Origin: Diacronema lutheri
Lineage: Eukaryota; Haptophyta; Pavlovophyceae; Pavlovales; Pavlovaceae
DNA length: 64,000 nt
Direction: 5' to 3'
Assembly: GCA_019448385.1 (NCBI GenBank)
Contig: JAGTXO010000038.1
Coordinates: 1-64,000 of the forward strand
The notes under the pieces were generated by a model. That model was not told the DNA's origin and ran no database searches. It saw only the letters and a list, made by a program, of their open reading frames with translations. This document shows, piece after piece, positions 11 to 34,388 of the stretch. A program made the translations under genes and the position numbers. The number at the start of each line of letters is the position of its first letter. Positions within the stretch are counted from its first letter, which is position 1.

Positions 11-3000
11 TCAAGCCAATCCGATCAGGGCACGATCGCGCCCCGAGTGCAGCGCGGGCCGTTCGGAAGGACGTCCTTGTGAGGGAGCTCTTCGCGTTTG
101 GCGAGCGGGGGAGCACGACGCGCAGCGTTTGCTGCGGCGGCGTGCGGGCGGCGAGCAGCGGTCGGGCTGCTCGCGACGAGGCCGGAGCAGGACGGCGCCC
201 GTGGCCGCCGCGCAGGTGACGCGCGCCGACGAGCCGTAGCGAGCGTCCGTGATCCGCACGGCGGTTGGAGCGGGCCGGCTGGTGCGGCGCGCTCGGGCCA
301 CGGGTGGCGGCGTGCACGGTCGTGCCGCGCGCGGCACGCGTCGCCAGCCGCGCGCGGACCTGGGCAGAGCCCGCAAAGCGTCGACCGCTGCGCGGCTCGG
401 CCGTGCGTCAACGCCGGCCGCGCTTCGGCCGCGCGCGCTGCCGCCGCCGGCACTGGCGCTGGCAGCTCCGCGGGCGGGGGTGCGGGCGCGAGAGCCGCCG
501 CCGCCACCGCCGCCGCGCCCGCCGCCGTCGTCGCCACCGCCGTCGCCGCCGCCGCCTCCCCCGCCGTCATCGTCGTCGTCGCCGCCGCCGCCTCCGTCGC
601 CGTCGCCGTCGCCGTCGCCCTCGCCGCCGCCGCCGTCGCCGCTGCCATCGTCGTCGTCGTCGTCGTCGCCCTCGTCGTCGCCCTCGTCGTCGCCGTCGCA
701 CTCGTCGTCGCAGTCGTCGCCCTCGCCGTGCACCATGCGCTCCTCACGCTCCCACACCTCGCCGCGCGCCCACCAGGCGAGCACGAGGGCAAAGCGCTCA
801 GGCGTCGACGTGGTGTCGCGCCCGGCCGCGTGCGCCGCCATGTCGTGCACGTCGTAGAAGATGTTGCGCGCGGCGTTGTAGTCGCGGTGCACGGGCTTCT
901 TGCCGCCGTTGCACGCCGGGCAGATGACGAGCGCGTGCACCGTGCGCGTGCCGCCCTTTGCCACGGGCAGGCGCGGGTTCTGCGCGAGCTCCGCGCCGCA
1001 GCGCTGCAGCCTGCCGCCCTTGGCGAGCCGCGGCATCGAGCAGTGCATCGACGTGTACGGCTCGGGCACGAAGACGGCCGCGACGCCGCGCCGCCGCAGC
1101 TCGCGCAGCAGCCCCACCTGGAAGGCGGGCGGCGCGCCCTTGGGCTGCGCGCCCTTGTGGTCGCGCAGCCACTTGCCCACGCACACGAGCAGCCGGTCGC
1201 GCGTCACGCCGTCGACACAGTGCGCCGCGATGAGCGCCTCGGCGACGCGCGCCGCGTTGGACCGCCCGCCGCTGTCGCGCCGCCAGCGCTCCTTCCGGCG
1301 CGCCGGCGCGTCGTACACGTGCTCGGCGGCGCGCTCGCGCACCCGCGCGCTCTCGCGGTGGAAGGCGTGGAACTCGCCCTCGCCGAGCACCTTGGCGCTG
1401 TGCGCCTCGCCAAGCCGCGCCTCGTCCGCCTCCACGCTGAACTCCTCGCCGCGCCCGTCCTTGCGCACGCGCCGCCGCGCCGCGTTGGTCTTGGCCGTCT
1501 CGCGCGCAAAGCCCGCGGCGCGCGCGCGCGCGCGCTGCGTGAACTGCCGCCAGACGGCCGCCCGCCCGACGTGCGCAGAGTAGGTGGTGATGTTGCCCAT
1601 GTTCGGGTCGGCCGCGACGACGACCGCCGCCTCGACGTCGATCGCCCGCCGCAGCTCGGAGCCGAGCGCGACGGCGATGCGCCCGTCCGGCCGGCGCCAG
1701 CGGTGCAGGACGCCCGAGCCGCCGGCCGGCGCCTGCGCCTTCGGCACGAGGACGGTCCCGACGGCGTGCACGGCGACGCCATCTGTCACCACCGACTTGA
1801 CGGGCTGCCGGCCCGGGAGCGGCACGCGCGGCAGCGGCGCGAGGCCAACCCACGAGCGCCGCGCGTGCCACGGCAGATCGGCCGGCGGCCGCTCGCGCCC
1901 GGCGTAGTCGAAGACGCGGTTGGAGATGTCGAAGCGCGTCGCAAAGACCGCGTACCTGACGCGCACGTCCGACATCGGCGGGGTGTTGCCGTTTGTGCCT
2001 GTCCACTTGATCGGCTCGCCATCGTGGTCGCGCAGGTCCAGCGCCTTGAGCCGCGCGCGCAGCTCCTTGCGCTCGTCATCCGAAAGCGTCACCCAGATGG
2101 CGCTCGCGGCGAAGCGCACGTTGCGCGGCACCTGCGCGCAGCGCGCGGCGCGCGAGCGCGCGGGCGCGTGACCAACCTGGCCGCGGGGCGGCGCGCACGG
2201 CGGCGGCGCGCGCGCGCTTGGGCCCTCGGCGGCGGCAGCGGCAGCCACGCCTCGCGCGCACATTGTGCGTGCGCAGCGGCGCCACATTGTACCGCGGCGG
2301 CCGTCCGGTCAGCTGCGTGTGGATGTGCGCGAGCCGGCAGAGCAGCGCCTGCCCCTCGGCCACGTGCTGCAGGGTGCGGATCTGCACGAGGAAGTAGCGC
2401 GTCGTGTGCCGGTCGTAGTTCCACCTTTTCGTGGGCGTGCACTTGTAGTCGATCTTGTGGAGGACCATGTCGGGCAGGTGGCGGTCGAGCGCGGCGGGGC
2501 AGCCGACGCGCGCGCCCTCCACGTCGCCGCGCAGCAGCCGCTCGCACAGCTCGCGCACGCGCGCGTTTCGCTGCATCTCGGGCAGCGCGACGAGCGCCTC
2601 GTCGCGCTCGACTGCCGCGCGGACGACGTCGCGGAGCAGCCCGTTCACGACGCGCGATGGATGCATCAGGCACGCGGTGGACACCTGCGTCGCCTCCGCC
2701 TCGAGGATCTCCGTGAGGCCCACCGCGCAGACGGGCTGGACGCCCTCGGCCATCTCGCCGACGGCGCGCGCCGTCGCCGCCTTGGTCTGCGCGGCGGCTT
2801 GCTCGGCGGGCTTGCCTCGGGGCGCTGCACCGTACGTGCTCTCGTCCTTGTGCCAGCCGATGGCCGAGAAGATCGCACGGACGGTTCCCTTGTCCATCGT
2901 GGTCGACGTGTGCACGCTGGTCGACGGGCCGCCCGACGCCGCGCCGACGGCCTGCGCGCTCGCCACCGCAGCCTCGTCGCGCACCACCTTGTTGATGACG

Positions 3001-3130
3001 CGGTACGCCTGTGTCGTGAGCCTGTGCACGGCCGCCGCGATGCGCCGCAGCTCCTTCCGCGCACCGGGCTGCGCCGTCACCGCCTGCGGCCCCGCGTTGA
3101 GCGTCGAGCGCTTGACCACGAAGCCCGGGA
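11..3130 (-). CDS. Fanzor (TnpB-like RNA-guided endonuclease) module, 3' end of the giant gene
   Basis: The helical N-terminal part runs about 3110-2262. A 130-bp intron (2261-2132) restores the Fanzor-typical segment reading PLRTHN|VPRNVRF across the splice. RuvC-I is at 1590-1630 with DPNMGN (Asp codon 1607-1609). The position of the canonical TnpB RuvC-II glutamate instead reads VCVGKW, followed by the family-typical KG..P stretch. The next acidic candidate is in FVPEPYTSMHCS (Glu codon 1061-1063), matching the relocated glutamate described for Fanzors. Cysteines follow as HC, RC and CPAC (TnpB-type zinc ribbon), then RuvC-III HRDYNAARNI (Asp codon 881-883). All three acidic residues are present, so the nuclease looks competent. 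The last 240 residues (about 740-11) are Asp/Gly/Ser/Arg-rich and may be a linker, or an ORF extension past an unrecognised splice. The partner guide RNA would be expected at the element's end beyond position 1; none is visible here. Confidence 0.85.
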
Positions 3131-6100
3131 GCACGCTGACGCGCGTGCGCGCCGTCGCGCCGCCGGCGGCGCGCGCGCTCGGCGCAGCGGGCTCGTCCAC
3201 GCGCGCGCGCTCGACGCCGCGCGCGCGGGGAACGCTCGGCGCGCGCGCGCCCGCGGCGTCGCGCGCGCTCGCGGCGGCACCCGCCGCGGCGCGCTTGCCC
3301 GCGGCGCCCGACTCGCCGTGCGCGCGAAGCGGCGCCGACGCCAATGCCGACGCCGCGCCCGCGCCGCCGCTGCCGCTGCCCGATACGCCCGCGCGCCGCT
3401 TCTGCTCGTCGCGCGTCTTGCGGAACTGGGCGACGAGGTCGCTGCTCACGTTGGCCTCAGGCTCCCACGTGTCGGCGCTCTCGTCGTAGCCCCGCCACCT
3501 GATCCGGAACTGGAACGTCACCTTCTTGCCCGCCTTGCGGCGCTCGTCGACGACCGCCTCGACCTCGTACGTGCGCGCCTCCTCGTCGACGCTCGCGCCC
3601 GCCGCGCTCGCGCCCGTGTCCGGCCACCCAGCGACCGTGCCGCCCAGCCTCTCGGCGGCCGCGCGCAGCTGCCGCTCGCGCTGGGCGGCCGCGGCGCCTC
3701 GCGCGACCAGCGCGGGCAGCATGCCCGCGCCGCCCGCGAGGCCGTGCGCGCCGACGCTGGCGGTCATCAGCGCGTCGAGGCACGCGAACGTTGCGAGCGC
3801 ACGCGCGCCATCGTCGCCGCCGCGCGGCTGCGAGCGCACGACGGGCGATGGCCGCGGCTCCCCCTCGGCCGCGAGCAGCGGCCAGATCGCACTGGCCAGC
3901 GCGACGGCATGCGCGCCGACCGCGACGGCCACGTCCGCGTCGAGCGGCGCAAAGTCGTAGCGCACGAGCGCGGCCGGGCGCGAGTCGTCCGTCGGCCGGT
4001 CGGCGACGAGCAGCCCGACCGGGCGCGGCGGCTCGCCGGACGGCGCGGCGACGGGCACGCAGAGGAGCACGACGAGCAGGCGCGGCGTGCCGCCGAGCAG
4101 CGCGCGCGCGGCATCCGCCCCGTCGGCTCCGCCGCGCGCGGCCGCGGCGAGCAGCTCGGCCGCGCGCGTCGGGCCCAGCGCCGTGCGCGCGTCCTTGCGC
4201 GCGCGTGCGCGGGCCGTGTACGCGGCGCAGGCGTCGTCGAGCACCGCCGCGCTGGGCGCGGTGCCAGTCGTCGCCCACGCGCGCAGCGCGTCGCGCACCC
4301 GCGTGACGATCGCCTGGTCGACCGCCGCCTCGCCGGCAGCGTGCGCCGGCGCGCACGCCGGCGGTGCGGCGGCAGGCGCGAGCGCGGGCGCGCCGTCGGC
4401 GCCGTCAACGCCGACGGCGCCGTCGGCGCGCCGCCACGCGAGCTTCGCCTCGATCTGCTGCCGGACGGCGTGGCAGTGCCGGTCGATGCCGCGCGCGTCG
4501 TCGAGCGCGGCCAGCGCGTCCTCAGCGGCGGGACGGCCGCTCGCGTCCGCGACGGCCTGCAGGCAGAGCAGCGCGGCCGCACGCGCGTTGCACGCGCTCT
4601 GCGGCTCGGGCGCGAGCGCGAGCTCGAGCTCGAGCGGCGACGCGCCTCGCGCCGCGGCGATCGCGTCCATCAGCACGTCCAACCGCTGCACCAGCGCCCT
4701 GTGCGCGTCGCGCGGCGCGCCCGTCGACGGCGCGCGCGAGCGCGTCGCCAGGAGCCCGAGCGCGCGCGCCGGCGCGCCCGCCGGCGTGTGCAGCACGAGC
4801 AGCGCCGCGCCCGCCAAGCTCGCGTTGCGCGTGACGAGCGCGAAGATGCGCGTCGCCTCGTGCGCGCCCACCGACGCCCAGATCGCAGCGCGATCGGCGT
4901 CCGTCTGCGCGTCGCACAGGTCGCGCACGTCGTCCGGCGCGAGCAGCGCGCCGCCGCCGGCGGAGCGCGCGACGATCGCCCGCGCCTCCGCCACGAAGAC
5001 GGCCTGCGGCAGGTCGGCGTGGCGCGCGTCGACGATGGCGCGCGTCGCGTGCACGCCGAGCTCCACGCCGCGGTAGAAGGCGCGCGCGTTGGCCGCGCGC
5101 GCGTGCGCCGGCCGTCCGTCCGCGTTGCGCCTCGCGCGCGCCTGCTTGCTCGTGCGCGCGAGGCCGTCGCGTGGCGGTGGCGGCAGCGTGGCGAGGAAGC
5201 GCGCGGCGGGCGGCGGCGCGCGCACGCCGCGCTGCCGCCGTGCGATGGCCGCGAGCCGCCGGCCCGCCGCGCTGCCGCCCGCGCCGACGTGCTGCCGGCG
5301 GCCGAGCGCCGCCGGTGGCGGCGGCGGCGGCGGCGCGGCGGCGGGCGGCGGCGCGACGGCGGGCGGCGGCGCGGCGGCGGGCGGCGGCGCGGCGGTGGGC
5401 GGCGGCGCGGCGGCGGGCGGCGGCGCGGCGGCGGGCGGCAGCGGCGGCGGCGCGGCGGCGACGGCAGCACCAGTCGGCTTGTCCGCCCACGCACCCGAGA
5501 CTCTGTCCCAGACCTTGCCCCATGGCGCGCGCCCACGCGGCCGCGCGAACTGCCCCGGCTCGAGCGCCTGGCCGCGCTTGGCGGCGGCGGCGGCGGCAGG
5601 GGGCGGGCGGCCGGCGCGCCAGTCGAAGACAGGTGCAACCGTGGCGGCAGGCGCCGAGTGCCGCGCGTCGGTCACAGAGCGCGTGGTGCGCGCGGCGACC
5701 GTGGCACGCCTGGCGGGCGGGCGGTGAGCAGCGCCCGCCGGCGCGCCGGCGGGCGCGGCCGCCTCGAGCCCGGCGGAGGCGCCGCGCTTGCGCTTGCGCG
5801 TGCCGCCGCGCGCGCGCCTGCGCGCGCGCCCGCCGCGCGCCCGTTCGGCCTGCGCGTCGCCAGCCGCGTCGCCGGCCGCGTCGCCGCGCCGCACGTAGAC
5901 GACCGCGAACGCCTCCTCGCCGGTCCCGTCGACGCCGCCGCGCGCGCGGCGCAGGACCGACCGCCACTGCAGCCGCCGCGCGCGGCCGGGCTCGCACGCA
6001 AACCAGCGCCCACCGCGCCTGACGACGGCCACAAAGTCGTCGTCGCGCCGCCCGCGCCGGCGCGTGCGCAGCAGCACGCACTGCACGTCGAGCCAGCCCT

Positions 6101-9100
6101 CGTGCCAGTCGGCCGTGCTGGGGGCGACGCGAATCGACTGCGGGAGCTCGACGCCAAAGCCGGCGAGCCGCACGATGTGCGCGACGATGACGCTCGAAAT
6201 GGCGGGGGCGCTCGACGGGTCGCCCGCTGCAGCGAGCACCGCCCCGCCCCAGTGCTCACGCGTGACGCAATCCGCGTCCTCGACGTGCACGTGCGCCACG
6301 CTCGCGCCGAGCTGGTGCAGCAACGCGCAGATGTCGGCGTCGACCGTCCTCTCCTCCTCGGCCGCCTCGGCCGTGCCGCGGGCGGCGGCGTCGCCTGCCG
6401 GCTGCCCGAGGTACGCGATCGCCCGCTCGACGGCCGCGCGCTCCGCACGCGCTGCGCTGTCGATCGCCGCATTGCCGACGGGCGCGCGCAGCGCCGCGAT
6501 CGCGTCTTGCAACGCCGTCGCGTCGCCCGTCGCCGCCGTCGCCGCCACCGCCGCCGCGCTCGCGGTGCCGTGCGCGACGGCGTGCAGCGCGGCGGCGCGC
6601 GCGGCGGGGATGCGCCCGTCCAGCGCGAGCACGAGCGGCGGCCCGGCCGGCGTCTGCTGCCGCCGGTGCCGCCGGCTCGCAGCCGGGTGGTCGGCGCGCG
6701 CGCGCTCGAGCCGCGCGCGCCGCTCGACGACGCGCGCCCAGAAGGCCTGCACCCTCGGCTGCGCGAATGCAAGCCAGCCGACGCCGCGCGTCACGACGTG
6801 CACGACGATCCGGTCCTCGTGCCTGAGGTACTGCACGTAGAGCGCTTTGCGCACGCCGAGGACGTGCATGCCGAGCTGCAGCTGATCGCGGTGCGGCTGC
6901 GGCGGCCCGTCCTCGTGCGCCTTGGCGTCCGCCTTGGTGAGCGTCTTCACCTCGACGAGGACCTGCTCGTTGTCTTCGGGGAGGATGGCGAGCCCGTCCG
7001 GCGAGAAGGCGAACGGCGCGCTCTTGTCGTGCGGGTCCGCACGCACCATCGGCAGGTTGCACACGACGGTGATGCCGTACGCGGCCGCCAGCTTGCGCAG
7101 CGCGACGGCCTCGCCGAGGATGCCCGCGGTCGTCGCCTTGGTCCGCACCTCGCGCCGCCGCCGGTGCACGTACTCGTCGGTGAGCGTCTCGTGCGCGACG
7201 CCGGCGTTGTCGTTCACGACGTCGCCAACCTTGCTGCCCGTGACCTCCTCCCATCGCTCGTCGTGCCAGCGCGGGCTGCGCTGCGCGGGCGCGCCCGCGC
7301 CGACGGCGTCGAGCACGCGGCGCAGCGCTGTGCCGTCGGGCGCAGCAGGCACGCGCGCGCGGTCCTGGGCCTCGCGAGCGTCGAGGACGCAGCCCGTAGT
7401 GGAATCTTGGGGTAGGTCGAGCTTGCTCGCCTCGCCGTAGCGGCTCTCCAGCTGGCGCGGTGCGTCGGCAGGGCCGCCGTCCGTGCGCGCACCCGACGCG
7501 CCCGCCAGTGCACGGGGCGCAGCGTCCGAGGCGCCCGCCGCGCCCGCGCCGCCGCCAATCGCGCCAGCGCACGCGCGCGCCGCGACCTGCGGACGGCCAG
7601 CCGCAGGGACCTCGTCCGCTCGGCCGGCCGCTGCGTCGGCCGTCCGCTTGGCCACCTCGCGCACGTCTCCGAGCGCGAGCGTGGCTGGCGCCGTCGAGCT
7701 CCCGTGGCGTTTGTTCCAAAACTCGAGCAGCCCGCCAAGGAAGGGCGTGCCCGTCGGGCGGTCCTCGGGCACCTCCGCCAGGATCGCGTCGACGCGCAGC
7801 GCGGCCGCCACATCGCAAAACGCGCGCGCGGCGCGCGCCATCCGCTCGGCGCGCGCGCCGCCGTCGTCCGCCGCGCGGCGGATGGCGTGGCTCACGTGCG
7901 CGACGCGGAGCGAGACGACGGCGTGCGCCGGCGCGTCGGCGCCCGTGCCGAGCGTGTGCCGCCGGATGGCCAGCTGCCCATCGCCCATGCGCGGCGGGAG
8001 CGACGCGCACGCCGCGACGGTCGTCTTGCCGGCCGCGCTGTCGCACAGCCAGCTCGCCTCGCCGCCGCCCGCAAACTCAAAGGTCGCGAAGCCCTCGCGG
8101 CCGAAAAGCGCGACGAAGTGGTCGAGCACCGCCTTGTTGATCGCGCGCGCCGCCGGCCGCGTCGATGCGCCGCGGGCAGCGCCACCCGCCGCGCCGCGCG
8201 CATCGCTGCACGTCGCAGGGCAGGTGCAGCCGGACGCGCGCACGCCGTCCGACCGCGTCCGCGGCAGCTCGAGCTCGCGCACCTTGGGGCAGAACCAGAG
8301 CGGGTTGGACGCCTCGAGGCACAGCACGACGAGCCGCCCGTCCGTGCCGGCCAGCGCGCGCGCGTCGCGCAGCAGCTCGACGGCGAGCTCGGACGTCGCC
8401 GCGTGCACCGCCGGCTCGCCCGTCGCGCGGTCGGGCGGGAAGAGGCCGCCGCCGACGAGCGGGCTGGGGCAGCGGCCGAGCATCACGAGCAGCGGCGGCG
8501 GCGGCGTCTGCGGCGCCTGCTGCCCGACCGCAGCCGCCGTCAGCCCGGCCAGGTCGGAGCTCGTGCGGAGGGCCTTGAGCGCGACGCGCGAGCCGGTGCC
8601 CGCCTGCTCGGAAAACGTGGCGAGCATGGCGCACGTGCTCGCCCTCGCGCCGCACTGCCAGCTGACGCGCGCGAGGAGGCCTTCCAGCGTGTCGTTTTCC
8701 GCGCGGGCCGCGTGACCGCGTCGAGCGCCGCCGGGCCGAGCTGGAGGCTGCCGGGCGTGACGCACAGCACCGCCTCGTGGTAGGCGCGCAGCAGCTCCCT
8801 CGGCAGCTGCTCGGCGGGCGTCGCCGCCTGCCCGCCCACCCACCGTGCACCGTGGCCGCCGTCGCCCGCGCCCGCGAGCCGGACCGCCGGCCCGCCCGTG
8901 ATCGCCGAGGTCGGTGGCGTGCCGAGCGCGTCGACGAGCGCGCGCACGGGCGCGACACGCCTGCGCGCAGCGTCCGCGCCGACGGCGAGCGCGGCGATCT
9001 GAGCGCCCTCCCATGCGCGCTCCCTCGCGTCGTCCCGCGCGGCCGCCGGCGCGGCGCCCGGCCGCGCGCCGTGCGGCACCGCGCACGCCGCCGCGACGAC

Positions 9101-10984
9101 CTCCGCGCGCGCGCCGGCGGCGTCGGGCGCGTGCAGCTGCGCGAGCGCGCCAAAGAGCGCGGCGGCCGAGCGGTAGCGGCCGTGCGCCGCGACGAGCGCG
9201 TAGAGCACGCGCAGCGCGGCCACGCCCGCCTGGTCGGGCGCGTCGCCAGCGATTTGCTCGACCTCCCACGTGCGCGTGGGCGGCGGGCTGCCGTCAGCCG
9301 GGTCCGGACGCAGCGCCCACGCGCGCTCGACGATCGCGTTGAACACGCCGTGCGCGGCGCCCTCGTCAAACTCGGCGGCGCCCGCCGCGTGCGCGCACCA
9401 CCCGTGCACGCGCGACGTGGGCGCGTCCACGGCGCGCTGCACGACGAGCACCGCCGGCCGGTCGACGCAGCCGAGGCTCACCGCCGCGTGCTTGCCCTCG
9501 AGCAGCGCCGCCGCCGCAGCCTCGACCAAGGCGTCATCAGGCGCGTCGCCGACGACGACGGCACAGCCGTCGCCGTACTCGGCCTGCATCGCGGCGACGC
9601 ACGACGCGACAAAGTCGCCGCCCGCGGCCGCCGCGTGTCGCGCCGCCAGCATCCGGCGCGCGATGGCAAGCCAGACGTACTCGGCCGGCGCGCGCGCGGC
9701 GCGCGCGCGAGGCGCGCCGGCCGCGCCGCGTGCGCCCGCGCGTGCGCCTCCAGCGGCCGCAACGGCCGAGGCGGCTGGAGCGGCGGTGAGCGTGCGCCGC
9801 GCGCGCTTCGCCGGCCGCGTGATGGGCGATGCACCCGCCGTCGCACCGCCCGCAGCAGCCGGTGCGGCCGCCACAGCGCCCGCCGCGACGCCACTCGTCA
9901 CGACGCCCGTGGCGGGCGGCGCGGCGGCGGACGTGGCCGCCTCGACGGGCGTCGCGCAACTACCGCCAGCGGTCGCGGACGCGCCCGGCGACGCGTCGGC
10001 GAGGAGGTGGCGCAGCACGCCGCGCGCGAGCGCGACTCGCACGGCGAGCGTCAGCGCGCGCAGGCGGTCGGAAGGCGAGGCGTCGCGCTCGGCGTCGGCG
10101 GACGTGGCGGCAGCAGGCGGGGCGGCGGGCGGCGCGGCGGCGGACCGGGCGGCCGCCGGCGCAACCTCGTCGGCCTTGGCCAGCCAGACGAGCCCGGCGA
10201 CTGCGAGCACGACGCTGTACGCGCCGACATCGTCACCCGCAACGCGCGCCAGCCGGGCGTGGGCGTCGGCCTCGGACACGGCGACGCGGAAGAGCACGTC
10301 GTCGCGGGCAGCTTGCTCGGCAAACTGACGCAGCTGCTTGGCCATCGTCACGCCGGCGACGCACGCCTCGCCCGCCTCTGCCTCGACCTGCTCGTCCTGG
10401 CCGATGGCGGACGCGCCGGCCTCGGCGCCACCGTCGAGTGTCCGGCGGCGCTCGAGGGCGAAGCCACGCACACAGACGCTCTGGAGGCCGCCGAGCGCGC
10501 CCGCCTTTTCGTGCAGCGCGCACGACAGCTCGACCACCGAGTCCACGCGCCTCGCGGCGGCGCCCCCCCGCTCGCCGCGCGTGGCCGCGCGCACGACGAA
10601 CACCGTGAATTGCGCGCGCTTCGCCGCGCGCGCCGACGCGCACGCGTGCTTCAGGAGCCGGCAAAGCGCGGGCCTTTGCGCCGCTGCGCCCCGCGTGCAC
10701 AGCAGCAGTTGGCCGCGCTCGTCGCCCAGCTCCTGCTCGACGGCGGCCTCGAGCGCGTCGTCCGTCAAATCGCCGTGCTCCGTCGAGGCGAGCGCGCGCG
10801 CAGCCGCGAGCGCCAGCTCGCCTGCGCCCGCGCGCCGCCGGCGGCGCGCACCGGCGGGCGCGTGCGGCGCCGACGCGTGTGACGACGCCGCCGCGTCCGC
10901 GCGCGCACACGCGGCGCGCAACGCCTCACGCGCCGAGGCGGCCGCGCGCGCCCTGGGCGCGAGCTTCAAGAACGTGCGCGCGGC

Positions 10985-11030
<46 letters not shown>

Positions 11031-14000
11031 TCGCCCGCGTCGCCGGCCGGCGGCGGCGGTGGCGGCGGTGGCGGCGCGGCCACGGCGGCGGCAGCAGCGG
11101 CGGCGGCGGCGGTGGCGGCGGCGGCGGCGCCCAGCGCGGGCGGCGGCGGCGTGGCGGCGGCGGTGGCGGCGGCGGTGACGCCAGCGGCGGCCTTGGCGCC
11201 GCGCGTCTGCGGCGGCGTTTCGGCGCCATCGGGGCTGCCCCCGCCGCGCACCGCGCTCGTGACCGCGCAGACGCCGCCCGGCGCACGATCGCCGGCCGCG
11301 CCGGTCAGCGCGACGCGGAGGCGCTCGCCGACAGCGTACATGTCCGCCACGCTGAACGTGCGCGGCGCGGACGAGCAGCCCGCCGCGGCGAGCGCGTCGT
11401 TGAGCGCGCCCACTATCGCGAGGCCGCACGTCGCGCCACGCTGCGCCGCCTCGTTGAGCAGCAGCGCGCGGCGCACGCGCGAAATGTCGAGACCCGCCGC
11501 GTGCAGCGTGGCAGTTATCGCCTTGGCGAGCATGAGCGCCTGCCTGCAGGGCGACGCGAGCGTGTCGACGAGCACCGCGTCGTAGCGATGCTCGCCCGCG
11601 CGCGCGACGCGCACAAGGCGCAACGCGGTGAAATGGCCGGAGGCGAGCTGCGCGCCGTCGTCACCGCCCGCGCCGCCGCGCTCGTCCGACGGGCTCCACA
11701 CGCCGATGACAGCCTGCGTTGTCGCCTCGCTGCGCAGGCGGTGCAGCAGCGCGGCGCGCTCGGCGTCGTCCTGAAACACCGCGGGTTGCGCGGCGAGCGG
11801 CACGTGGCAGACATGCCCGCCGCCGGCCTGCCCGTGCACGCGCAGCACGACCTCGCAGCACGCGTCGACGGTTGAGGCGAGCATGTCGCCGCTGGCGATG
11901 CGCTCCACCTCTGCCTGCGGGAGGCCGGCGCTCGCGGCGGCGGCGGCCAGCCGGCGCGCAGCCGCGTCGCCCGCCCACGCAAGCAGCGCCGAGTTGGCGG
12001 GTTGGAGGGGAAGCTCAAGGGCGGCTGGTTCGGTGGCGGTAGCCTCGTTGGCAACGGGCACGTTGGCGGTGCGCGCGTTGGCGGCGGGCGCGGCGGCGAT
12101 GGCTGGTGGGGCGGAAGACGCGCCCGCGGCGGCAGGCGCGGACGCGGCAGCGGCAGCGGCTAGTGGGGCGGGGAAAACGCCGTCGGTGGCAGGCGCGGAG
12201 GCGAATGCAGGAGCAACTAGTGGGGCGGGAAAATCGGCGGCAGGCGCGAAGGCGGATGCAGCAGCGGCTAGTGCGGCGGGGAAAACACCGTCGGCGGCAG
12301 GCGCGAAGGCGGATGCAGGAGCGCCCAGCGGGGCGCAGAAAACACCGTCGGCGGCAGGCGCGAAGGCGACAGCAGCAGCGGCCAGTGGAGCGGAGGCGCA
12401 GGGCCACGCGCGCGCCAGCCGTGCAAGCCCAAGCCGCGCGCGAGCGACGCACGCGCCGATGGCCGAGGCGGCGGCGCAGGCCACGACGTGGCCTGGCACC
12501 GGTGTGGCCAGCCGCTCGCGGGTGTGCACGTCGAGCCGCGCCCCACGCCAAGAGCGGCGGCGCGCTGAACGGAGGCGCGCGACCCCGATCGATCCGCCCG
12601 CGCACGCGCGCGCCGGCTCAGTGTGGCCAACGCGCGCCGCTATGCAAGGCGCGCGCGCGATAACGGCGGCTGTCGGCCGTGGCGTGCGCGTGGCGGCGCC
12701 GCGGCGACGGGCGCGGCACACGAGCCGCTCGGGCGCGCCGCCGCCGCGCGGCACGATGTCGAGCAGCACGGTCACGCCGCGCGCGCGCGCGACCGCCGTG
12801 CACGCGAGCCGCACGGGCAGCGGCGGCCCGTCCGGGCGCGCGAGCGCCGCCACCTCGGCGTCGGTGAGGCTGTGCAGCTCGCGGCGCGCGCGCGCGAACG
12901 CGGCGATGTCCGCGCGCAGCTCCGCGTCCGTGCCGAGCGCGGCGCGCGCGTGCACGGGGAGCGACGCGCGCAGCGCGTGGAGCACGCCGCCGCGCGCGCC
13001 GCGCGGCGCCGGCGCGCGCTCGCGCTCAGCGCGCGCGGCGCGCGTGAGCTCGCGCACCGCGCGCGCGAGATTGCGCCGCGCGGCCGCGACGGGAGGGCTA
13101 GGTGCGCGCGCGCGCCGGTTGTAGCGCGGCCGCGCCGAGTTGAGGGGCGGCGGACGCGGTGCGTACGCCGCGGCGCGGCCCGCGCGCCAAAAGGCCGGCG
13201 GCGGGCGCAGCTCCGTCGCGTCGACCGCGGCCGCGAGCGCGCCGAGCGCGGCGTCGCTGTCGCCCGCCGCGTCGGCCGCGTCGACGAGCACGAAGAGCGC
13301 GCCGAGCGCGCGCGACGCGGCCGCCTGCGCGGCGGTGGGGCGGGCGCAGGCAGCGACGCATGCGGCCGCCATGCCGCGCGCCGCGGCGAACACCGGTGAC
13401 GTGACGGCCGCGCCGATGGCAACGGCGGCGGCGGCGACGGTGGAGGCGGTAGCGCCGGCGATGGAGGTGGCAGCGGCGGCGGCGCTTGCCATCGCGCGGC
13501 GCGCGAGACGCGAGGCGCCACCGACCGCCGCCGCCGCAGCGCGCGCTGCGCGCGCGCCGGTGGCGCGCATCGTCGCCGCGCCAGGCGCCGCCGCGCCGAT
13601 GCCGCCGGCGCCCGCGCCGTCGCCCCTCTCGGCCGTGCAGGGCTCCGATGACGGGCCCGGCGTGCGCTGGCGCGTGATGCGCGCGCCGAGGCGCGCGCTC
13701 CGCGCCGCGCGGCCGGCGACGTCGAGGACGCGCCGTGCGCGCGCCGCGCAGAGGCCGCGCGCGCGCGGCGGCGCACCGACAGGCGCCGAGCGCCGCGGCG
13801 CGCACGCCGGCGCGTCGCTGTCGGGTTGCGCAGCGCGCGCGCGGGAACTCGGCGCGGCGTGTGCGGGCGGCGGGCGCGCGCCCGCGCGGCGCAGAGGCGC
13901 GAGGCGCCGGCCGCAGACGAGGCGTGTGCGCGGCCAAGACGGTGAGGGCCGCAGGGCGCCGTCGACGTCGCGCATCGGCGGGCCGCGAGCGCGCCGCGCA

Positions 14001-17000
14001 GCCGTGCGGCGCGCACAAGGCGCTCGGCGGCGCGCGCGCCGCTCGGCGCGCGCGGCGGCGCGCACGCCAGCGACGGCTGCGGCCACGCCGCGCGCCAACA
14101 CGGCCGCGGCGTGCGCCATCGCACCGAGCACGGCGCGTGGCGCGCCGAGCAAGCGCAGCAAGCGCGACGCCGTCGCGCGCGCCGGCGCACCGTGTGCAGG
14201 GGCCTCGCCAGCGCCAGCACCGACGCCGCCATCGCCGCAGCCGCAGGTGGCGTCGCCGCCGCCGCAGGCGTCGCGACGGACGCCGCCGCCGCCGAAACAA
14301 CCGCCGCACACGTCGCCGCCGACGTTGCCACCCCAGCCGCCGTTGCGTGCGCAGGTGGCTGCGGCGCGTGCGTGCGGGAGGCGTGCCGTGCGGCGCGCAT
14401 CACACGGGCTGCGCGACGCGAGCGACGCCGCCGGGGTCCCCGCTGCGCCAGGCGCGCCGTGCGCGCCAGCCTCGCCGGCCTCGCCGGTGCGCGGTCGCGC
14501 GCTCGCCTCGACGTGGCCGCCTCCGCCGCCATCGCCGCCGTCGAACCGGGCGGCGGAGGGCTGCTGCTCGAACCGCTCGTCGGCGTCGGCCGCCACCGCC
14601 GCCTCGCGCTCCGCCGCCGCGGCGGCCGCACGGCGCGCGTGGCGGAGCGCGCGGCCGCCGTCCGCTGCGCGGCGTGGTGGCGCGGGCGCGGCCTTCGGCG
14701 CGCGCGGCCTCTCGGCGCGCTCGCGGAGCACGGCGAGCGGCGTGCCCGTGGCGACGCTCGTGCAGACGCGCCGCAAGGCGGCGCTTACGCACGCGTGGAC
14801 GACGCGCGCCGTCCGCTTGTCGGCGGCGCGCGCGGCGCGGCGCGCGGCCTTGGCGGCGGCCTTTTTGGCGCGCCTCTGCTCCGCCTGCTCCGACAGCGCG
14901 CGCGCCTGGCGCTCGGCTGCGAGCGCGTCCTCGGGCGAAACGGTCGGCCTCGGCGGCCGCGCGCGCGCGCTGCGACGCTGCGCGCTGCGGCGGTCGGACG
15001 GCGGCTGCCGCGGCGGCGAGGACGGCGAGCGCGAGCTCGGCGTGGGCGACCAATCGCCGCTGACGGTTGCGAGCGGCGCAAACGGGTTGTCGTCCCCGCG
15101 ACCCGCGGCGTGCGACAGTGCACGCGGCGTCGGGCGCCGGCCGACCGCTGGCGGGCCCCACTCGGACGGCGGCTCCGAGGGCGAGCGCGCCGTCGGCGCC
15201 GCGCGTTGCGCGGCCGGCGGCGCCTCCCGGTCCAGCGCCGCCTGCTCTCTCGCCGCGGCCTGCTCGTCACCCTCCGGCACGCCACGCGGCGCGAGCACCG
15301 CGGTGGCGCAGCGCGTCGCGTTGAGCAACGCCGCCTCCATCTGCCGCACGCTGGCCTTGGCGCACGCCACACCCTGTCTCGCCCGGCGCAGCGCCTCGTG
15401 CGCGCGGCGCACTTCCGCGTCGGCATCTTCGCGCATGCCAAAGTGCGCCTGTTGCAGCCGCAGGTCCGCAGGGCGCCCCTGCGCGCGAGGGGCACGGGCG
15501 CGGCGGCGCGCAGGTGACGGAGCTGGCGCGCCGTTCTGCGCTGCGCGCACGCCAATCGACGGGCGCGCGCGCGGCGGGGCGCGCGCGCGCGCGCGCGCGC
15601 GCGCTGCCTACCCAGCCGCCGGCCGGCTCGCGCGAGCGCGCCAGCTGCTCCGCCGCCTCGGCGTCGAGCACGCGCTGCTGCGCCTCCTCCTCGCCCAGTG
15701 CAGCGAGGTGCAGCCGGCGGGCTGCCTTGCGGCAGTTGCCCTCCGCCTTGCCCACGGCCTTGCGCGCCGCGTCGACGGGGTCGTCGTTGGCTCTGGCGCG
15801 CCTGCGCTTGCCCTTGTCGGCGGGCGGCGGCTCGGCGCGCTGCAGCGTGCCGAGCGCGTCGTCGGCTCCGCGCGCGGCCGCCCGCGGGCGGCGGGCCCCA
15901 AAAAGCGCACCGGTCGCCGTGCGCGCCGCGCAAGCAACGACCAGCGCTGACATGCCGGCGAAGACCGCACCGCCCAGCGCCACGGTTGCCACGATGCGCA
16001 GCGTCCCGTGCGCAGGCCGCGCTGCCTCCGCCGCTTTGGCGGCCTCGCGCGCGCGCGCATCGGCGGCTCTCATCTCGTGCAGCAGCCCGGCCGCGCCGCT
16101 CGCGCCGTCGCGGCCGCGCGCGAGCTCGCACAGCACCGCCGCCGCGCGCCGCGTGGGCTCGCGCGCGAGCAGCTGCGCGCCGCCGTCGGGGCGCAGCTTC
16201 TCAACGAACTCGACAAACGTCGCGTCGCGCCAGAGGGACATGCGGAAGGCCCTGTGCACCGCCCCCTCGTGCTCGCGCATCCGCCGTGCCGCCCGCCTGC
16301 CGTCGCGCGCGTGCGCGTGCGCGGCCGCGTCGACTCCCGCGACGCCGCGCTGCGCGTCGCGCGCGGCCGACGACGGCGCCGCCGCGCTGCCCGCCAAGGG
16401 CGCCGCAGCGGCGACGCGCGCGTGCGGAGCGACGGGATCGCCGGCGGCCGGCGGCTCGGCGCGCTGCGGCGTGCCGTTTGCTCCGCGCGCGGCCGTCCCG
16501 GGGGAGATGGCCGCGATGGCGCCGCCAGCCGCGCCGCGCGCCAGCCACGCGCATAGGCTGCCGACGAGCTCGCCGAGACCCCCGACGGTCGCCGCGGCGG
16601 CGAGTGCGCCGGGCTTGCCGGCCGACAGCGGCTCGCGAGCGTCGTCGTCGCAGCCGCCGGCACCCGTCTTGGCGAGTGCGTCGCGCTCGCCCTCGACGCC
16701 CGCCACGACCGCCGCCCCTCCGTCGTCCGCCGCGCCGGCCGCGCGCGCGGCCGGGCGCAGAGGAGGCGTGCCGGTGCAGCCGTCGCCGCTCGTCTTCGCC
16801 GTTTCCTCCACTTTGGTCACTTCGTCGCCACCTGCGCCATCTCCGACGCCGGGGCCCTTGGTCACGCTTGCCGCCATGCGCGCCGTGCCCGCCGGCCAGC
16901 CCGCCGACTGCTCGAGCGCGGCGGCGAGCGGCGCGACGCGCGTCGACTCGGGCGCGCTCTCGTCATCGGGCTCGAGCGCGTTGTGCAGGCGCGCGAGCGC

Positions 17001-19286
17001 GCGCTCGACGGCCGCGGCGCCACTGCCGGGGGCGCGGCTCGCCGCGCGCACCGCGCGCCGCCAGGCCGGCGCGAACATGAGCGCCGGCTCGAGCGCCGCG
17101 AGCGCGCGCGCCTCGCGCGCGTCGCTCGCGCCGAGGCGCGGCGGCACGCGCGCGGCTCCGCGCGGCGCGGTGCCTCGGAAGCGTGGGCTCAGCGTGTAGG
17201 CGAGGTGCTGCGGCACGCCGCGCGCCTCCGCGCGCGCGCGTCCGTCCTCGACCTCGCGCCGCGCCTTCGCGATCGCCGGCGTGGCGCGCGCGAGCCAGTC
17301 GGGGTCGGCGGGCAGGTGGATCACGACGAGAATCGGCGCCCAGTCCAGCCGCGGGTTCTTGTGACGGTCGGGCACGACCCACACGAGCAGCACCGTGCCC
17401 TCCGCGCCGCACGCCGCCTCGTAGATCCTGGGCTGCGAGCGCCAATCGGGCCTGACGCGCAGCGCCCGCGCGTGGTCGATGGCGGCGGCGCGGTCGCCAT
17501 TGAAGTGAACCGTCGTCACCTCGCCGATGACGGACCGGCCGGACCGCCAGCAGAACACCGCGTCCGCCGACCCGCCGGCGATGGCCGCGAGCGATTCGGG
17601 CGCGGCGAGCCGCGGCAAGCCCTCGAAGGCGGCAAAGTCCTCGTGCGCATTGTACACGCCGCCCCAGCCGTCGTGCGCGTACGCGCGCGCGGCCGCTCGT
17701 ACCGCGCGCGGCTGGTTCTCCACGCCCGACGTCATGTGCCATGTCGTCCCCGCGAAGCCGGGCTCGCCCAGCTCGGCCCGCACGACGGTACCGTACCCCG
17801 CGCCCTGCGTCGGGGCGGCGAGGTGGTGCATGCCCGCGCCGGTCACGCCCTCCGTGCGCTGCCGCGTGACGATCGTGCCCGTCGCGTGCGCGAAAAGCGT
17901 GTCGACCACGGCGGGCGCGCGCCCGCTGTTCGCCCGTAGCCGCGCCCTGCCCGCTTTTAGCTGCTCGGGGTCCTTGGCGTCGTACACGCGCGCGTCCGCG
18001 TCGCCCTCATCAGGCGCAGTGTAGACGCAGCGGCGTTCGAGCGGCGCCGAGCCACCGCCGTCCGCCGCCGCCGGCGAGGTTGGCGCCGCGCCCGCCGCCA
18101 CCGCGCTCGTCGCCGCCGTGCCCGTCGCCACCGCCGCAGCCGCCGCGCCCGCGGGGTCGTCGTCCCCGTCCTCCGCGCCCTCCCCGTCGTCAGCGGTGGT
18201 GGCGTCGCCATCGTCCCCGTCGCCCTCGCCCCCGCCGAGGCTGCTGAATGGTCGGGGCCCCCACGCCGAGGCGGCGCGCCGCTGCGGCGCACGCGGCGGT
18301 GGCGCTCGCGACGGCGGCCTTGGCGCCGCCGCGCCGCGCGGCCTGGCCGCCGTCGACAGCGCGCGGCCTGCAGCGCCCGTGAGCGCGTCGAGCGCGGCCG
18401 TGCGTGCGATGCGGTCGTCGGGCGCGCGCAGCGCCGCCTCGACGGCCTGCAGCAGCCCGTCGGGCGCGGATCCGCCGACACTGGCATCGCACGCCTCGGC
18501 GAGCCGCGCGGCCTCGGCGAGCCGCGCGGCCTCGCGGGTGAACGGGCCGAAGCGCCTGGCGCGGTCGCCGAGCAGAGCGCCGATGGCGGCGCGGAGCGTG
18601 CGCGCGCGGGTCTCCTCGTACGCGGCCGTCGTGAGGCGCGCGAGGCACGCGTCCAAAGCCTTCTTGATGTCGACAAGGACACTCGCGCGGCGGCCGTAGA
18701 GCGTCGATGCGCTCGCCACGACCTCGGCCGCGACTGTTGCCGCGGCGAAGCAACACGCGGCCCCACTCTGCGGGGGCGCCTTGAAGGCATCGATGGGCGG
18801 CGCTGTTCTGCCGATGCGCTGCGCAAGCTTCTTGATGAGCACGCCGGCCGCCGTGGCGTACGCCGATTCGCCGTTGCCCAAGGTGCGCGAATCGGCGAGC
18901 AGGGCGAGCGCGGCGCCGGGCGGCGCGCCGCGCTGCGCGGGCGGCGCGAGGAGCAGGTACGCCGCCGTCCAGTGCACGAGGCCGCTGGACGCGCGGAGGC
19001 AGAGCGGTAGCACGACCACGAGCACCTGCCCAAACCGGTCCGCATCCGCGCATGCTTTGCGCAGGTTGCGCAGCGCCACCTTGAGCGCATGCTGCGAGCA
19101 CCCCGTGTCGCCCACCCTAACCCTGCTCGTGCCGAAATCCGCGTAACGCAGCAGGGCGATGAGGCAAGTGGATGGGACCACGTGGGGGTGGGTATCTCCC
19201 GGCGACAGAATGGTGCTGAGGGCCAGCGAGAAACTGTCCGAGCCGCCCCGCCCGCCGGGCAAAGCGTCCTTCACGGAGTCCTCCAT
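11..19286 (-). CDS. Giant multidomain protease-nuclease protein with C-terminal Fanzor (4 exons)
   Basis: Four long minus-strand frames join into one predicted gene: exons 19286-15612, 15478-8717, 8603-2262 and 2131-11. The introns are 15479-15611, 8604-8716 and 2132-2261 (133, 113 and 130 bp); all begin GT, end CAG and are phase 0, and every exon is a whole number of codons, giving about 6,299 residues. The start ATG at 19286 has a good context (CAGATGG). Domains in order by residue: Ulp1-like protease (25-182), PD-(D/E)XK-like (505-672), 57-bp VNTR (about 2250-2340), Ulp1-like (2420-2590), Ala/Gly/Pro linkers, degenerate protease-like (3200-3320), YqaJ nuclease (3950-4090), two eroded protease-like regions (4220-4380, 4980-5100), chromodomain (5150-5215) and Fanzor (5310-6060), then an Asp/Gly tail. 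The domains are my motif readings. The splice joins are inference; separate genes or internal starts remain possible. Function as a whole is unknown, but the set (SUMO/ubiquitin-type proteases, DNA exonuclease, histone reader, RNA-guided nuclease) suggests a selfish element. Confidence 0.6.
480..740 (-). repeat. GAC/GGC microsatellite (Asp/Gly tail)
   Basis: Interspersed (GAC)n, (GGC)n and (GACGGC)n triplets encode an Asp/Gly-rich tail after the Fanzor core. On the opposite strand it reads poly-Ser/Pro. The true C terminus of the Fanzor is uncertain because of this stretch. Confidence 0.7.
3400..3580 (-). other. Chromodomain
   Basis: TYEVEAVVDERRKAGK, then FQFRIRWRGYDESADTWEPEANV and a helix SDLVAQFRKTR, make a canonical chromodomain. 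The aromatic positions are Y in TYEVE, W in RWRGY and W in TWEPE. Such domains bind methylated histone tails and are used by retrotransposons and some DNA transposons for targeting. It lies about 270 bp before the Fanzor N-terminal region in the same frame. Confidence 0.85.
3750..4100 (-). other. Possible degenerate Ulp1-like region before the chromodomain
   Basis: It reads LLVVLLCVPVAAP, RPVGLLVADR and VRYDFAPLD, then SAIWPLLA and SQPRGGDDGARALATFACL (about 3790-3840). This follows the strand, Asp, W-helix, Q..DCG order of Ulp1 domains, but with DDG in place of DCG. If homologous, it has lost the nucleophile. Low confidence. Confidence 0.25.
5320..5465 (-). repeat. PPPAAA microsatellite linker
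   Basis: About seven units of a 21-bp GCGGCGGGCGGCGGCGCGGCG-like repeat encode PPPAAAP on the minus strand. It is a low-complexity linker within the giant gene, with the frame maintained. Confidence 0.75.
5900..6370 (-). other. Possible eroded cysteine-protease-like (Josephin/C48-like) region
   Basis: The region has a DICALLHQLGAS helix, REHWGGAVLAA, and later DDFVAVVRRGGRWFACEP, which recalls the His strand (HyvAlrr.g.W..lDS) of Josephin or C48 peptidases, with Asp in place of His. The resemblance is in pattern only. It could equally be an unrelated fold. Confidence 0.2.
6780..7190 (-). other. YqaJ/lambda-exonuclease-type PD-(D/E)XK nuclease domain
   Basis: Reading 5' to 3' on the minus strand: a helix GILGEAVALRKL, then FSPDGLAILPED and QVLVEVKTLT (6940-7015), then HRDQLQLGMHVLGVRKALYV (6830-6890). 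The Glu of the first helix, the PD, the EVK and the QxQ helix are the hallmarks of YqaJ-type exonucleases, which resect DNA ends in phage and viral recombination. All catalytic residues are present. It lies about 3.2 kb before the chromodomain in the same frame. Confidence 0.7.
9190..9560 (-). other. Degenerate Ulp1-like domain (nucleophile Cys missing)
   Basis: The order of elements resembles a C48 core: RPAVLVVQR then RVHGWCAHAAG, and finally EQIAGDAPDQAGVAALRVL, which aligns by eye with the Q....DCGv.al block but has QAG where CG is expected. If homologous, it is catalytically dead. The homology call is weak. Confidence 0.3.
10980..11180 (-). repeat. GCC/GGC low-complexity tract (poly-Ala/Pro/Gly)
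   Basis: Runs of (GCG)n and (GGC)n read as poly-Ala interrupted by Pro/Gly in the minus-strand frame. It separates the second Ulp1-like domain from the next globular part and is probably a flexible linker. Such tracts are prone to length variation and assembly error. Confidence 0.75.
11380..11890 (-). other. Ulp1/C48-like cysteine protease domain 2 (apparently intact)
   Basis: The blocks are GHFTALRLVR (His, 11621-11646), AVLVDTLAS (Asp, about 11555-11585) and AAQRGATCGLAI (Gln and Cys, 11418-11461). This is the His-Asp-Gln-Cys order of C48 peptidases, including the CG pair at the nucleophile. It is preceded by a helix reading LPQAEVERIASGD, like the start of a Ulp1 core. This is the best preserved protease domain of the chain. 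Confidence 0.6.
12129..12398 (-). repeat. Approximately 57-bp tandem repeat coding for Ala-rich units
   Basis: About five imperfect units of roughly 57 bp, each reading like FAPAADGVFPAPLAAAASA on the minus strand. They sit just upstream of the second Ulp1-like domain inside the giant gene. The frame is kept through the array, which supports the region being translated. Confidence 0.7.
17270..17770 (-). other. PD-(D/E)XK-like nuclease domain (divergent)
   Basis: The segment contains GGSADAVFCW then SVIGEVTT (17500-17577), which looks like the Asp strand and ExK strand of the PD-(D/E)XK fold with Lys replaced by Thr. It is followed by RSQPRIYEAACGAEGTVLL, resembling the Gln-containing helix and following strand of YqaJ exonucleases. 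It is laid out like the clearer YqaJ domain at 6.8-7.2 kb and may be a diverged copy. Loss of the catalytic Lys argues against normal activity. Confidence 0.35.
18740..19210 (-). other. Ulp1/C48-like cysteine protease domain 1 (apparently intact)
   Basis: N-terminal domain of the giant protein. Three blocks appear in the order expected for Ulp1/SENP peptidases: a His strand VHWTAAYLLL (18957-18983), an Asp strand ALLADSRT (about 18890-18905) and a Gln/Cys block PPQSGAACCF (18748-18775), where one of the paired cysteines would be the nucleophile. The spacing fits a short Ulp1 core. Such domains remove SUMO-like proteins and are common passengers in large eukaryotic DNA transposons. The exact family is inference. 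Confidence 0.5.
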
Positions 19287-19805
19287 CTGCAGACTGTGGG
19301 CACGTCAGTGTCCGGATGGCGGCCCGGATGATACTTGGGAGAATTTACATGATGCCCTGGAGAATGCCACGCTCTCCCACAACCAGGACCCGCCAGCGCG
19401 CCGAGCCTACTCGTTTGCCCGCGCCGCCTCTCTTTGCGCGCCCGAGCGCGGCCTCCGAGCGCGGCCAACGTCCTCCGGGGGCGTGCATCGTGGCTGCTCG
19501 GAGGGGCTGCGACGCGGCGAAAGCTCGCTGCGCGGCCGCAACGTGAGCGCGCGCGCGCGGCCGCGCGCCGGCCTGCGCTGCTCTGCACGGCCGCGCGCCG
19601 GCCTGCGCAGCCTCGTCGCGCAGCGTGAGCGCGAGCGCGCGCGAGGTGAGCTCGGCGGATGGGTGCGCGGCGGCGTTGGCGGCGGGTGCGGCGGCAGGCT
19701 GGGCGGCGGGTTTGGACGGAGAGTGTCCAGGAAGAACGGGGCGCATCCTGGCTGGGAGTTGGACGGCGCCCACCACGCGCTGGCGGATCCTGGTTGCCAC
19801 CACCA

Positions 19806-27570: not shown

Positions 27571-27574
27571 GTCG

Positions 27575-29011: not shown

Positions 29012-29137
29012 CGAAGGTGGGAGGATGCCACCCGTATGCGCGCGTTTGAACGTGCGCGGACGGCCGTTGGCTTCGCGCCCTTTCGCCCACGGTTTGCGCG
29101 CCAACGGACCAGTCCTCCGCGGGCGCCGCGCATCGTC

Positions 29138-29344
29138 TCAGGGGCGGTCGGTGTGGTACGCCGCGCGCATCGTCAGCGCCGCGGCGTCGAGCTCGGCGAG
29201 CGAGGGCGCGTACGTGACGCCGCTCAGCACCTCGTCCGCGCCCGCCCTCGTCGCGCTCGCCGCCTCCGCAGTGCGCGCAGGCGGCTTCGTGACGGCACGC
29301 GAGGCCACGCCGCGCGCCGCAGGTGCCTTCGCGCGCTGCATCGT
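29138..29344 (-). CDS. Small ORF of uncertain status (about 68 codons)
   Basis: It starts MQRAKAPAARG and ends ALTMRAAYHTDRP. The composition is more protein-like than that of neighbouring shadow frames, but there is no homology or motif. It would be divergent from the coiled-coil ORF at 29428. It may be the terminal exon of a larger, broken gene. Confidence 0.2.
   Translation of the reverse strand, partial: TMQRAKAPAARGVASRAVTKPPARTAEAASATRAGADEVLSGVTYAPSLAELDAAALTMRAAYHTDRP

Positions 29345-30260: not shown

Positions 30261-30293
<33 letters not shown>

Positions 30294-34352: not shown

Positions 34353-34388
<36 letters not shown>

Follow-up and report, generated by a model that had tools for sequence, protein, structure and literature searches.

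A chromodomain–Fanzor fusion predicted in the main gene of a high-copy 31 kb mobile element of the haptophyte Diacronema lutheri

The first 64,000 bases of contig C83 of the Diacronema lutheri assembly (the window) begin with one copy, at positions 1–30998, of a ~31 kb mobile DNA element that has reached a high copy number by recent amplification. The main gene of the element runs along the minus strand from 19286 to approximately 407 and is predicted to close with a Fanzor nuclease that is well supported, by its reading frames and a published splice junction, as an in-frame fusion to a chromodomain, downstream of a RecE/YqaJ-type exonuclease in one open frame. An earlier interpretation of this DNA from its letters alone (the sequence-only reading) had described a fused protein of this kind; the larger context that it missed is that the gene belongs to an element of ~200 copies and encodes a transposon protein rather than being a unique host gene. 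The best overall explanation combines the mobile element, the parts of the giant gene and spread guided by the Fanzor, and we consider it to be somewhat better than an even proposition. The genomic counts refer to the 43,492,796-base, 103-contig D. lutheri assembly.

Extent, ends and copy number of the element

Window positions 1–30998 align with C71:151837–182853 at 99.47% identity, with 73 mismatches and 20 gaps; this match stops at 30998. The flanks are unrelated: comparison of window 31001–48000 with C71:130001–210000 gave short weak matches only (the best being 89 bases at 83%), which were taken for low complexity. That the element is mobile is shown by this 99.5% copy with unrelated flanks, the ~200 ends found in the genome and the existence of size classes with identical termini.

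The left end of the element reads GTATAGATGGTC... and the right end reads ...GGACCGCGCC[C/G]TATATAG, with TATA at 2–5 and 30991–30994 bordering a unit of 6–30990. The last 2.9 kb is present at 99–100% identity in 40 places, including that in the window (40 scored of 306 candidates). Using probes that did not contain TATA, all 21 right ends that were read (the window's included) have the form GGACCGCGCC[C/G]TATAT, 20 of them continuing as TATATA, and all eight left ends with a visible flank read GTATAGATGG. TATA is next to the insertion at each of these 21 right and eight left ends, with the proviso that the right ends in C85 and C26 have a common flank and may be a single locus assembled twice. 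Genome-wide, there are 193 exact left ends with G and four with T as the first base (197 in total) and 173 exact right ends, 142 of which run on as TATATAG; the patterns behind the 193 left and 173 right ends include TATA and so cannot test it, and the TATA claim rests on the TATA-free probes. The base preceding TATA at the right end (30990) is C in eight and G in 13 of the 21 copies read, unlike the left-end G, which is nearly fixed (193/197). No terminal inverted repeats were found between the two ends of the element. TATA on both sides is compatible with either a 4 bp duplication or a crossover within TATA, and use of a repeat family next to the insertion yielded no clean empty site. In four of the 21 copies (L013, L014, L016 and L017), a different repeat of the ACTAACGACGCTT or GTAACGACGCTT type, one form of which has 149 exact copies, begins at the insertion site or no more than about ten bases from it; this repeat is perhaps a preferred insertion target.

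Of the 100 left ends listed, 60 could be assigned a partner among the 93 right ends used, which gave lengths of 30.5–31.1 kb (26 pairs), 29.1–29.4 kb (eight), 26.0–26.9 kb (eight), 21.4–21.6 kb (13) and other values (five). Content was scored in the 54 pairs on contigs C1–C43 with one pattern from exon 1 of the giant gene and one from the PIF1-type helicase gene of the element; the patterns are exact and one substitution can hide a copy, so that `absent' denotes absent or changed. Both patterns are present in 24/24 copies of the 31 kb class, the PIF1 pattern alone is absent in 7/7 copies of the 29 kb class and both are absent in 12/12 copies of the 21.5 kb class. The 26 kb class is mixed (four with PIF1 only, one with exon 1 only and two with neither), and four pairs were of other lengths. 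The exon-1 pattern occurs 157 times genome-wide and the PIF1 pattern 131 times. The one 21.5 kb copy that was read retains the left 11 kb, including the exonuclease, the chromodomain and the Fanzor. Extrapolation from the mean paired length (27.7 kb), the paired fraction (60 of 100 listed left ends) and the 197 left ends suggests that the element occupies roughly 3–5 Mb of the genome.

Many contigs, such as C1, C12 and C83, start at the left end of the element. The idea of a telomeric element, which this could suggest, is ruled out by the internal location of other copies. The assembly was built from PacBio reads with an N50 of 23 kb (PMC8379373); contigs presumably begin at the edge of the repeat because, at 31 kb, it is longer than these reads, and the published assembly is probably less contiguous because of the element.

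The giant gene and its domains

The four long minus-strand frames of the sequence-only reading (15267–19304, 8540–15607, 2076–9293 and 11–2308) are present, and the coding signal follows them in turn. At the local base composition, the probabilities of stop-free runs of 1225, 2355 and 2405 codons are 4e-6, 5e-11 and 3e-11, respectively; frame length alone is weak evidence, with 76% GC over 1–31000 and 148 frames of at least 200 amino acids in the window. The codon-position score, in 300-base bins, starts sharply at ~19.3 kb and then favours the exon-1 frame to ~15.7 kb, the second at 15.4–8.8 kb, the third at 8.5–2.2 kb and the fourth at 2.2–0.4 kb, with weak or negative bins at 15.7–15.4, 14.5–13.6, 12.7–12.1, 10.0–9.7 and 8.8–8.5 kb. 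The score was partly trained on 8.7–0.4 kb and is independent for 19.3–8.8 kb only. The 3.3 kb upstream of the gene carry no coding signal (best frame −19 to +2 per bin).

Three phase-0 introns had been proposed to join these frames. The one at 2132–2261 is supported: the NCBI model KFE25_006464, from a diverged copy, splices exactly at these positions, with ...APLRTHN leading straight into VPRNVR.... The D. lutheri annotation as a whole drew on RNA-seq evidence (PMC8379373), which may extend to this junction. The intron at 15479–15611 is probable, as judged from the switch of frame and from a bin over it in which all three frames are negative. The third, at 8604–8716, is refuted, since the C71 copy (with a 4518-codon frame) and the C19 copy (L060–L061) are both open across it; relative to C71, the window copy has two single-base length differences around 8.7 kb. 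The length differences between two copies amount to 24, 33 and 18 bases in exon 2, all multiples of three, and to two bases in intron 2; this is weak evidence, as they lie in codon-periodic sequence. Bases 2216–2217 are absent in 5/5 copies (L056–L060) and present in the window and C71, indicating two copy types. In the KFE25_006464 product itself (P0015, on a contig of 1,863,016 bp), three SAM domains are joined to 70 residues of the presumed Fanzor N-terminal lobe and the start of the nuclease lobe; either a host gene has captured an exon or the model is an artefact of gene prediction.

The gene end had been placed at 11, which is ruled out: it was produced by a one-base difference near 430. 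Because of this difference, the end in the window copy is approximate. The stop is at 406–408 in the C19 copy, and the database protein P0009 has the matching C-terminus (...GSARGPKRGRR). Exons 19286–15612, 15478–2262 and 2131–407 are likely to encode one chain of ~6,200 residues interrupted by two introns. The single protein of ~6,300 codons that was first proposed is thus slightly shortened and is likely rather than proven, as the low-signal linkers could hide a boundary. No internal repeats were detected in the giant protein at E ≤ 0.01.

Exon 3 encodes a Fanzor, as indicated by its profile match, an intact RuvC D-E-D set and a TNB region. The C-terminal Fanzor of the earlier interpretation was borne out by profile search, with matches to PF07282 at 1.2e-6 for the window frame and 2.5e-6 for P0009, whose identity over the Fanzor exon is 99%; P0010 alone gave no PF07282 match, P0011 was under the cut-off and NCBIfam guided_TnpB was far under its own. 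P0010 and P0011, two relatives encoded on short contigs, share 44–46% identity with the searched exon. The RuvC residues Asp171, Glu353 and Asp413 (P0009 numbering) are invariant in all three sequences, and the exon is stop-free in 75 of the 76 genomic copies scored (of 458 candidates). The presumed N-terminal lobe (3140–2262) gave no profile match of its own.

The chromodomain was likewise recovered by profile search (PF00385, 3.3e-12), with CDYL (2dnt, 3.3e-11) and HP1 (1kna, 3.3e-9) as its closest solved relatives. Inspection by eye shows the Y, W and Y residues of the methyl-lysine cage, at what we take to be the cage positions. The frame contains no Met from 3722, before the chromodomain, to 2897, inside the presumed N-terminal lobe; this and the splice that matches the published model support the fusion.

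The YqaJ exonuclease was confirmed as a RecE-like domain by phrog_434 (E = 4.9e-16), even though TIGR03033 (3.7e-6) and Pfam YqaJ (0.008) are each below their cut-offs and a search of PDB sequences gave no match. A D...E-x-K...Q motif is visible by eye, and the domain at 6717–7292 is assigned a PD-(D/E)XK core like that of lambda exonuclease and its group. A second PD-(D/E)XK nuclease had been read at about 17145–18017, where no profile matched. Two segments show, by eye, the order H...D...Q...C with the spacing that we assume for the Ulp1 family. The Ulp1-like proteases nevertheless remain motifs only: no Ulp1/C48 profile was found in Pfam at E ≤ 1 (whole frames) or E ≤ 10 (segments), the PDB gave no match and the AlphaFold model of the 11404–12070 segment was unusable, with a mean predicted local distance difference test score (pLDDT) of 46.6.

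The ~400 bases between the Fanzor stop codon and the end of the element do not differ between the two copies compared (0/405 sites), and exon 2 of the same pair differs at 51/5718 sites (0.9%). This identity is suggestive only, as a hint at a guide-RNA role.

Proposed mechanism and alternative explanations

About 400 bases separate the Fanzor stop from one end of the element, and in 21/21 right ends read TATA is found beyond the opposite end. In SpuFz1, the target-adjacent motif (TAM) is 5'-CATA-3' and the omega-RNA lies between the stop codon and the element end (PMC10432273); PMC11423790 contradicts this assignment, giving CATA for GtFz1 and TTAA for SpuFz1. By likeness to SpuFz1, we place a putative omega-RNA and a TATA-type TAM in the element. 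The Fanzor would use RNA transcribed from the ~400-base end by its stop codon out into the flank, would recognize a TATA-type motif like that at every insertion read and would cut the empty site, either sister or new. The RecE/YqaJ exonuclease and the PIF1 helicase, which are what a copy step based on recombination would be expected to need, would then process the ends and copy the element. The chromodomain would tether the machine to H3K9-methylated chromatin, and the ubiquitin-specific peptidase (USP) and the unproven Ulp1-like parts may blunt host ubiquitin and SUMO responses. A strand-transfer enzyme for the first insertion may sit within the thousands of residues that have no assigned domain.

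Several observations weigh against this explanation. The lack of a transposase among the families found leaves the mechanism unanchored and far less certain than the single chain. The single chain is predicted from genomic sequence, and the failure of the coding signal at 14.5–13.6 and 12.7–12.1 kb makes a gene boundary possible there; similarly, a start at Met 2897 would give a Fanzor without the chromodomain. Substitutions between the two copies look neutral (15 synonymous and 36 non-synonymous in exon 2; one and eight in exon 3), compared with a random expectation of 28% and 26% synonymous, respectively, and the ratio of non-synonymous to synonymous rates from these two copies is uninformative. 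Relatives were found for the Fanzor exon only: residues 640–2400 of P0003 gave no homologues, and the searches made with the non-Fanzor parts returned nothing except the KFE25_006464 fragment of the same element. The AlphaFold model of the Fanzor exon, from a three-row alignment, was unusable (pLDDT 41), and the putative guide RNA folds no better than shuffled sequences (z = −0.55 to −1.4).

A strong alternative, which we place a little short of even, is that the Fanzor, exonuclease and helicase are passengers and that the element is moved by an unrecognized DDE transposase or tyrosine/serine recombinase, encoded within it or elsewhere, through a 4 bp TATA duplication or a crossover. TATA on both sides agrees with this, the lack of a terminal inverted repeat would fit site-specific recombination and large stretches of the element with no assigned domain could conceal a recombinase. 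Fanzor1 proteins have been captured by many transposon superfamilies, and Sola2 elements have AT-rich 4 bp duplications (PMC3627910). Against it, no transposase or recombinase family was found in Pfam scans of the main frames, which were scanned singly and did not comprise all frames, so that domains split by introns could be missed.

The giant gene could also be two or more genes, an upstream one (19.3 to ~13–14 kb) and one from ~12 kb that encodes the exonuclease, chromodomain and Fanzor, joined merely by an open frame through low-complexity DNA; we regard this as rather doubtful. Besides the weak signal at 14.5–13.6 kb and its loss at 12.7–12.1 kb, a stretch that contains 57-base repeats at 12127–12393, the 21.5 kb class points this way, with no exon-1 pattern in 12/12 copies and all three downstream domains kept in the copy read. 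However, the second-exon frame is stop-free there and has no Met from 13372 to 11884, so that a new gene would require an unseen exon, and the coding signal picks up again in the same frame beyond the 12.7–12.1 kb gap.

Self-cleavage of a polyprotein by the Ulp1-like proteases, which had been raised as a possibility, is unlikely. The H...D...Q...C order is seen in two segments and separate mature enzymes would account for the length, yet the protease part has neither profile nor model support, and self-cleavage is accordingly a mere possibility. The most far-reaching form of the favoured explanation is an improbable one at this stage: the element would belong to a novel class of giant eukaryotic mobile DNA whose spread is directed by chromatin and guided by RNA, with a ~6,200-residue protein that cuts and copies in place of a conventional transposase. 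The chromodomain would here bring the Fanzor to silent chromatin, where it would cut TATA-flanked sites matching the element-end RNA, and the built-in RecE-type exonuclease and the PIF1 helicase would finish the insertion by recombination.

An integrated virus or a Polinton-like element is very improbable: the 31 kb size, the helicase, the exonuclease and a cysteine peptidase would suit it, but neither a capsid nor a packaging ATPase, PolB or integrase was found in the scanned frames, terminal inverted repeats are lacking and four scans of IMG/VR, which mainly reach close relatives, found no relative. Least credible is a decayed or misassembled locus without function, for which the window copy offers single-base length differences, several in number and mostly within the first 430 bases, at a contig end of a PacBio assembly (PMC8379373) in which repeats may be hard to polish; other copies are open over the same stretches and P0009 agrees at 99% over the Fanzor exon, which largely refutes decay for the element family, although it may hold for the window copy.

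Other features, related systems and implications

The features of the element are listed in Table 1. A PIF1-type helicase gene and a USP-like peptidase lie upstream of the giant gene on the same strand. The helicase matches PF05970 (1.8e-24 and 4.2e-14) and a 2B domain (6.2e-13); its motifs are scattered over three frames, in which the two copies compared do not differ in length, and the changes of frame are either small introns or shared frameshifts. No solved relatives of its N-terminal extension were found. The PF00443 match of the peptidase covers profile positions 2–100 of 254 only, with a His box seen by eye. The arms of the palindrome at 28142–29013 contain GGGTGTAGGGTGTAGG-type repeats, and it may serve as an origin or a regulatory region, or be a foldback element nested within the larger one. 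The two copies compared have no single-base length differences at 28.95–30.4 kb, and the split frames at 28951–30990 reflect either small introns or an inherited broken gene.

Table 1. Features of the element copy in the window
Feature	Position	Strand	Evidence or remarks
Mobile element copy	1–30998		Left end at start of contig C83; C71 copy, ends of other copies, genome counts
3' region, non-coding, Fanzor stop to element end; candidate omega-RNA scaffold	1–406	−	Predicted
Fanzor nuclease lobe, exon 3: RuvC D-E-D, acidic/glycine tail, basic C-terminus	407–2131	−	PF07282, P0009
TNB region	860–1099	−	Within exon 3
Intron 2, GTGCGC...GCGCAG, phase 0	2132–2261	−	KFE25_006464 junction; 2-base copy difference inside
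Presumed Fanzor N-terminal lobe (WED/REC-like)	2262–3140	−	Position and spliced junction
Exon 2 (~4,405 codons)	2262–15478	−	Intronless near 8.7 kb in two other copies
Chromodomain, HP1/CDYL type	3417–3569	−	PF00385
RecE/YqaJ-type exonuclease domain	6717–7292 (P0003 668–859)	−	phrog_434, TIGR03033, Pfam YqaJ
H-D-Q-C `Ulp1-like' motif region 2	11404–12070	−	By eye; AlphaFold model unusable
Intron 1, probable, GTAGGC...CGCGCAG, phase 0, 133 bases	15479–15611	−	Frame switch, coding-signal dip
Exon 1 (~1,225 codons)	15612–19286	−	Open frame, coding signal from ~19.3 kb; Pfam/PDB negative
Segment read earlier as PD-(D/E)XK	About 17145–18017	−	No profile match
H-D-Q-C `Ulp1-like' motif region 1, unproven	About 18530–19286	−	By eye
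USP/UCH-type peptidase domain, Cys box part	23174–23440	−	PF00443, 4.3e-8
PIF1-type helicase gene, ~300-residue N-terminal extension	25240–27572	−	PF05970, 2B domain
Imperfect palindrome, 872 bp, 89–90% to own reverse complement	28142–29013		In 40 copies scored
Opposite-strand frames, possible coiled-coil protein over three frames	28951–30990	+	No family match

To the right of 31 kb the window contains ordinary eukaryotic genes (kinesin, a CLPTM1/aldolase open frame and EF-hand). The plus strand of 48000–64000 is a long array of a 291 bp (97-codon) repeat that stays open for 5,669 codons up to the end of the window, with a GC skew of about −0.34 to −0.39. Its short unit CCGCCGAGCCCG would encode Pro-Pro-Ser-Pro in one possible frame.

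The nuclease resembles Fanzor1 proteins as described in PMC3627910 and PMC10432273 in its RuvC/TNB lobe, its D-E-D residues and its [TS][TS]xxC...RD order, as well as in its residence in a mobile element with the 3' end facing the element end and an AT-rich motif at the insertion site. It differs from known Fanzor1 proteins in its predicted in-frame fusion to a chromodomain, in what appears to be a further linkage with an exonuclease and thousands more residues, and in its ~31 kb carrier. The superfamilies named as carriers of Fanzor1 are Helitron, Mariner, IS4-like, Sola and MuDr (PMC3627910; PMC10432273). Sola2 shares the AT-rich 4 bp flanks, but differs in possessing inverted repeats and a transposase of its own, neither of which was found here. 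Helitrons and Helitron2, in which Fanzor1 is known, share the PIF1-type helicase and short end hairpins (by eye); in contrast to these, the frames around PIF1, scanned singly, gave no Helitron_like_N or Rep (HUH) match, and the ends are not 5'-TC/CTRR-3' but GTATAGATGG and GCGCC[C/G]TATATAG, with insertion at TATATAG. The proposed logic, in which a putative element-end RNA would guide the nuclease to the empty site, is that of the TnpB OMEGA systems of IS605/IS607, whereas no TnpA was found here and the element is eukaryotic, with extra chromatin and recombination modules. The phrog_434 match of P0003 residues 668–859 relates the exonuclease to phage RecE/lambda-exonuclease-type YqaJ proteins; unlike these, it is embedded in a giant eukaryotic element protein, and no annealing protein of the RecT/Beta kind that could partner it was recognized in the scanned frames. 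In size and number of enzymes the element recalls Polintons/Mavericks and other giant eukaryotic transposons (PMC6431247), but none of PolB, integrase, capsid or ATPase was found in the scanned frames and its ends do not form long inverted repeats; the main text of that review makes no mention of Fanzor, YqaJ, Ulp1, chromodomain or Pif1. In the open-access literature, we found no paper describing this element or the fused arrangement of Fanzor, chromodomain and exonuclease.

According to the discussion in PMC10432273, the role that Fanzors play for their elements is still unknown. Here, a Fanzor sits in the main protein of a ~200-copy element in the compact 43.5 Mb genome of a culturable, industrially used alga, and naturally deleted size classes are available for comparison, so that its role is directly testable. 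The chromodomain fused to a putative RNA-guided nuclease would represent a natural design for chromatin-targeted cutting.

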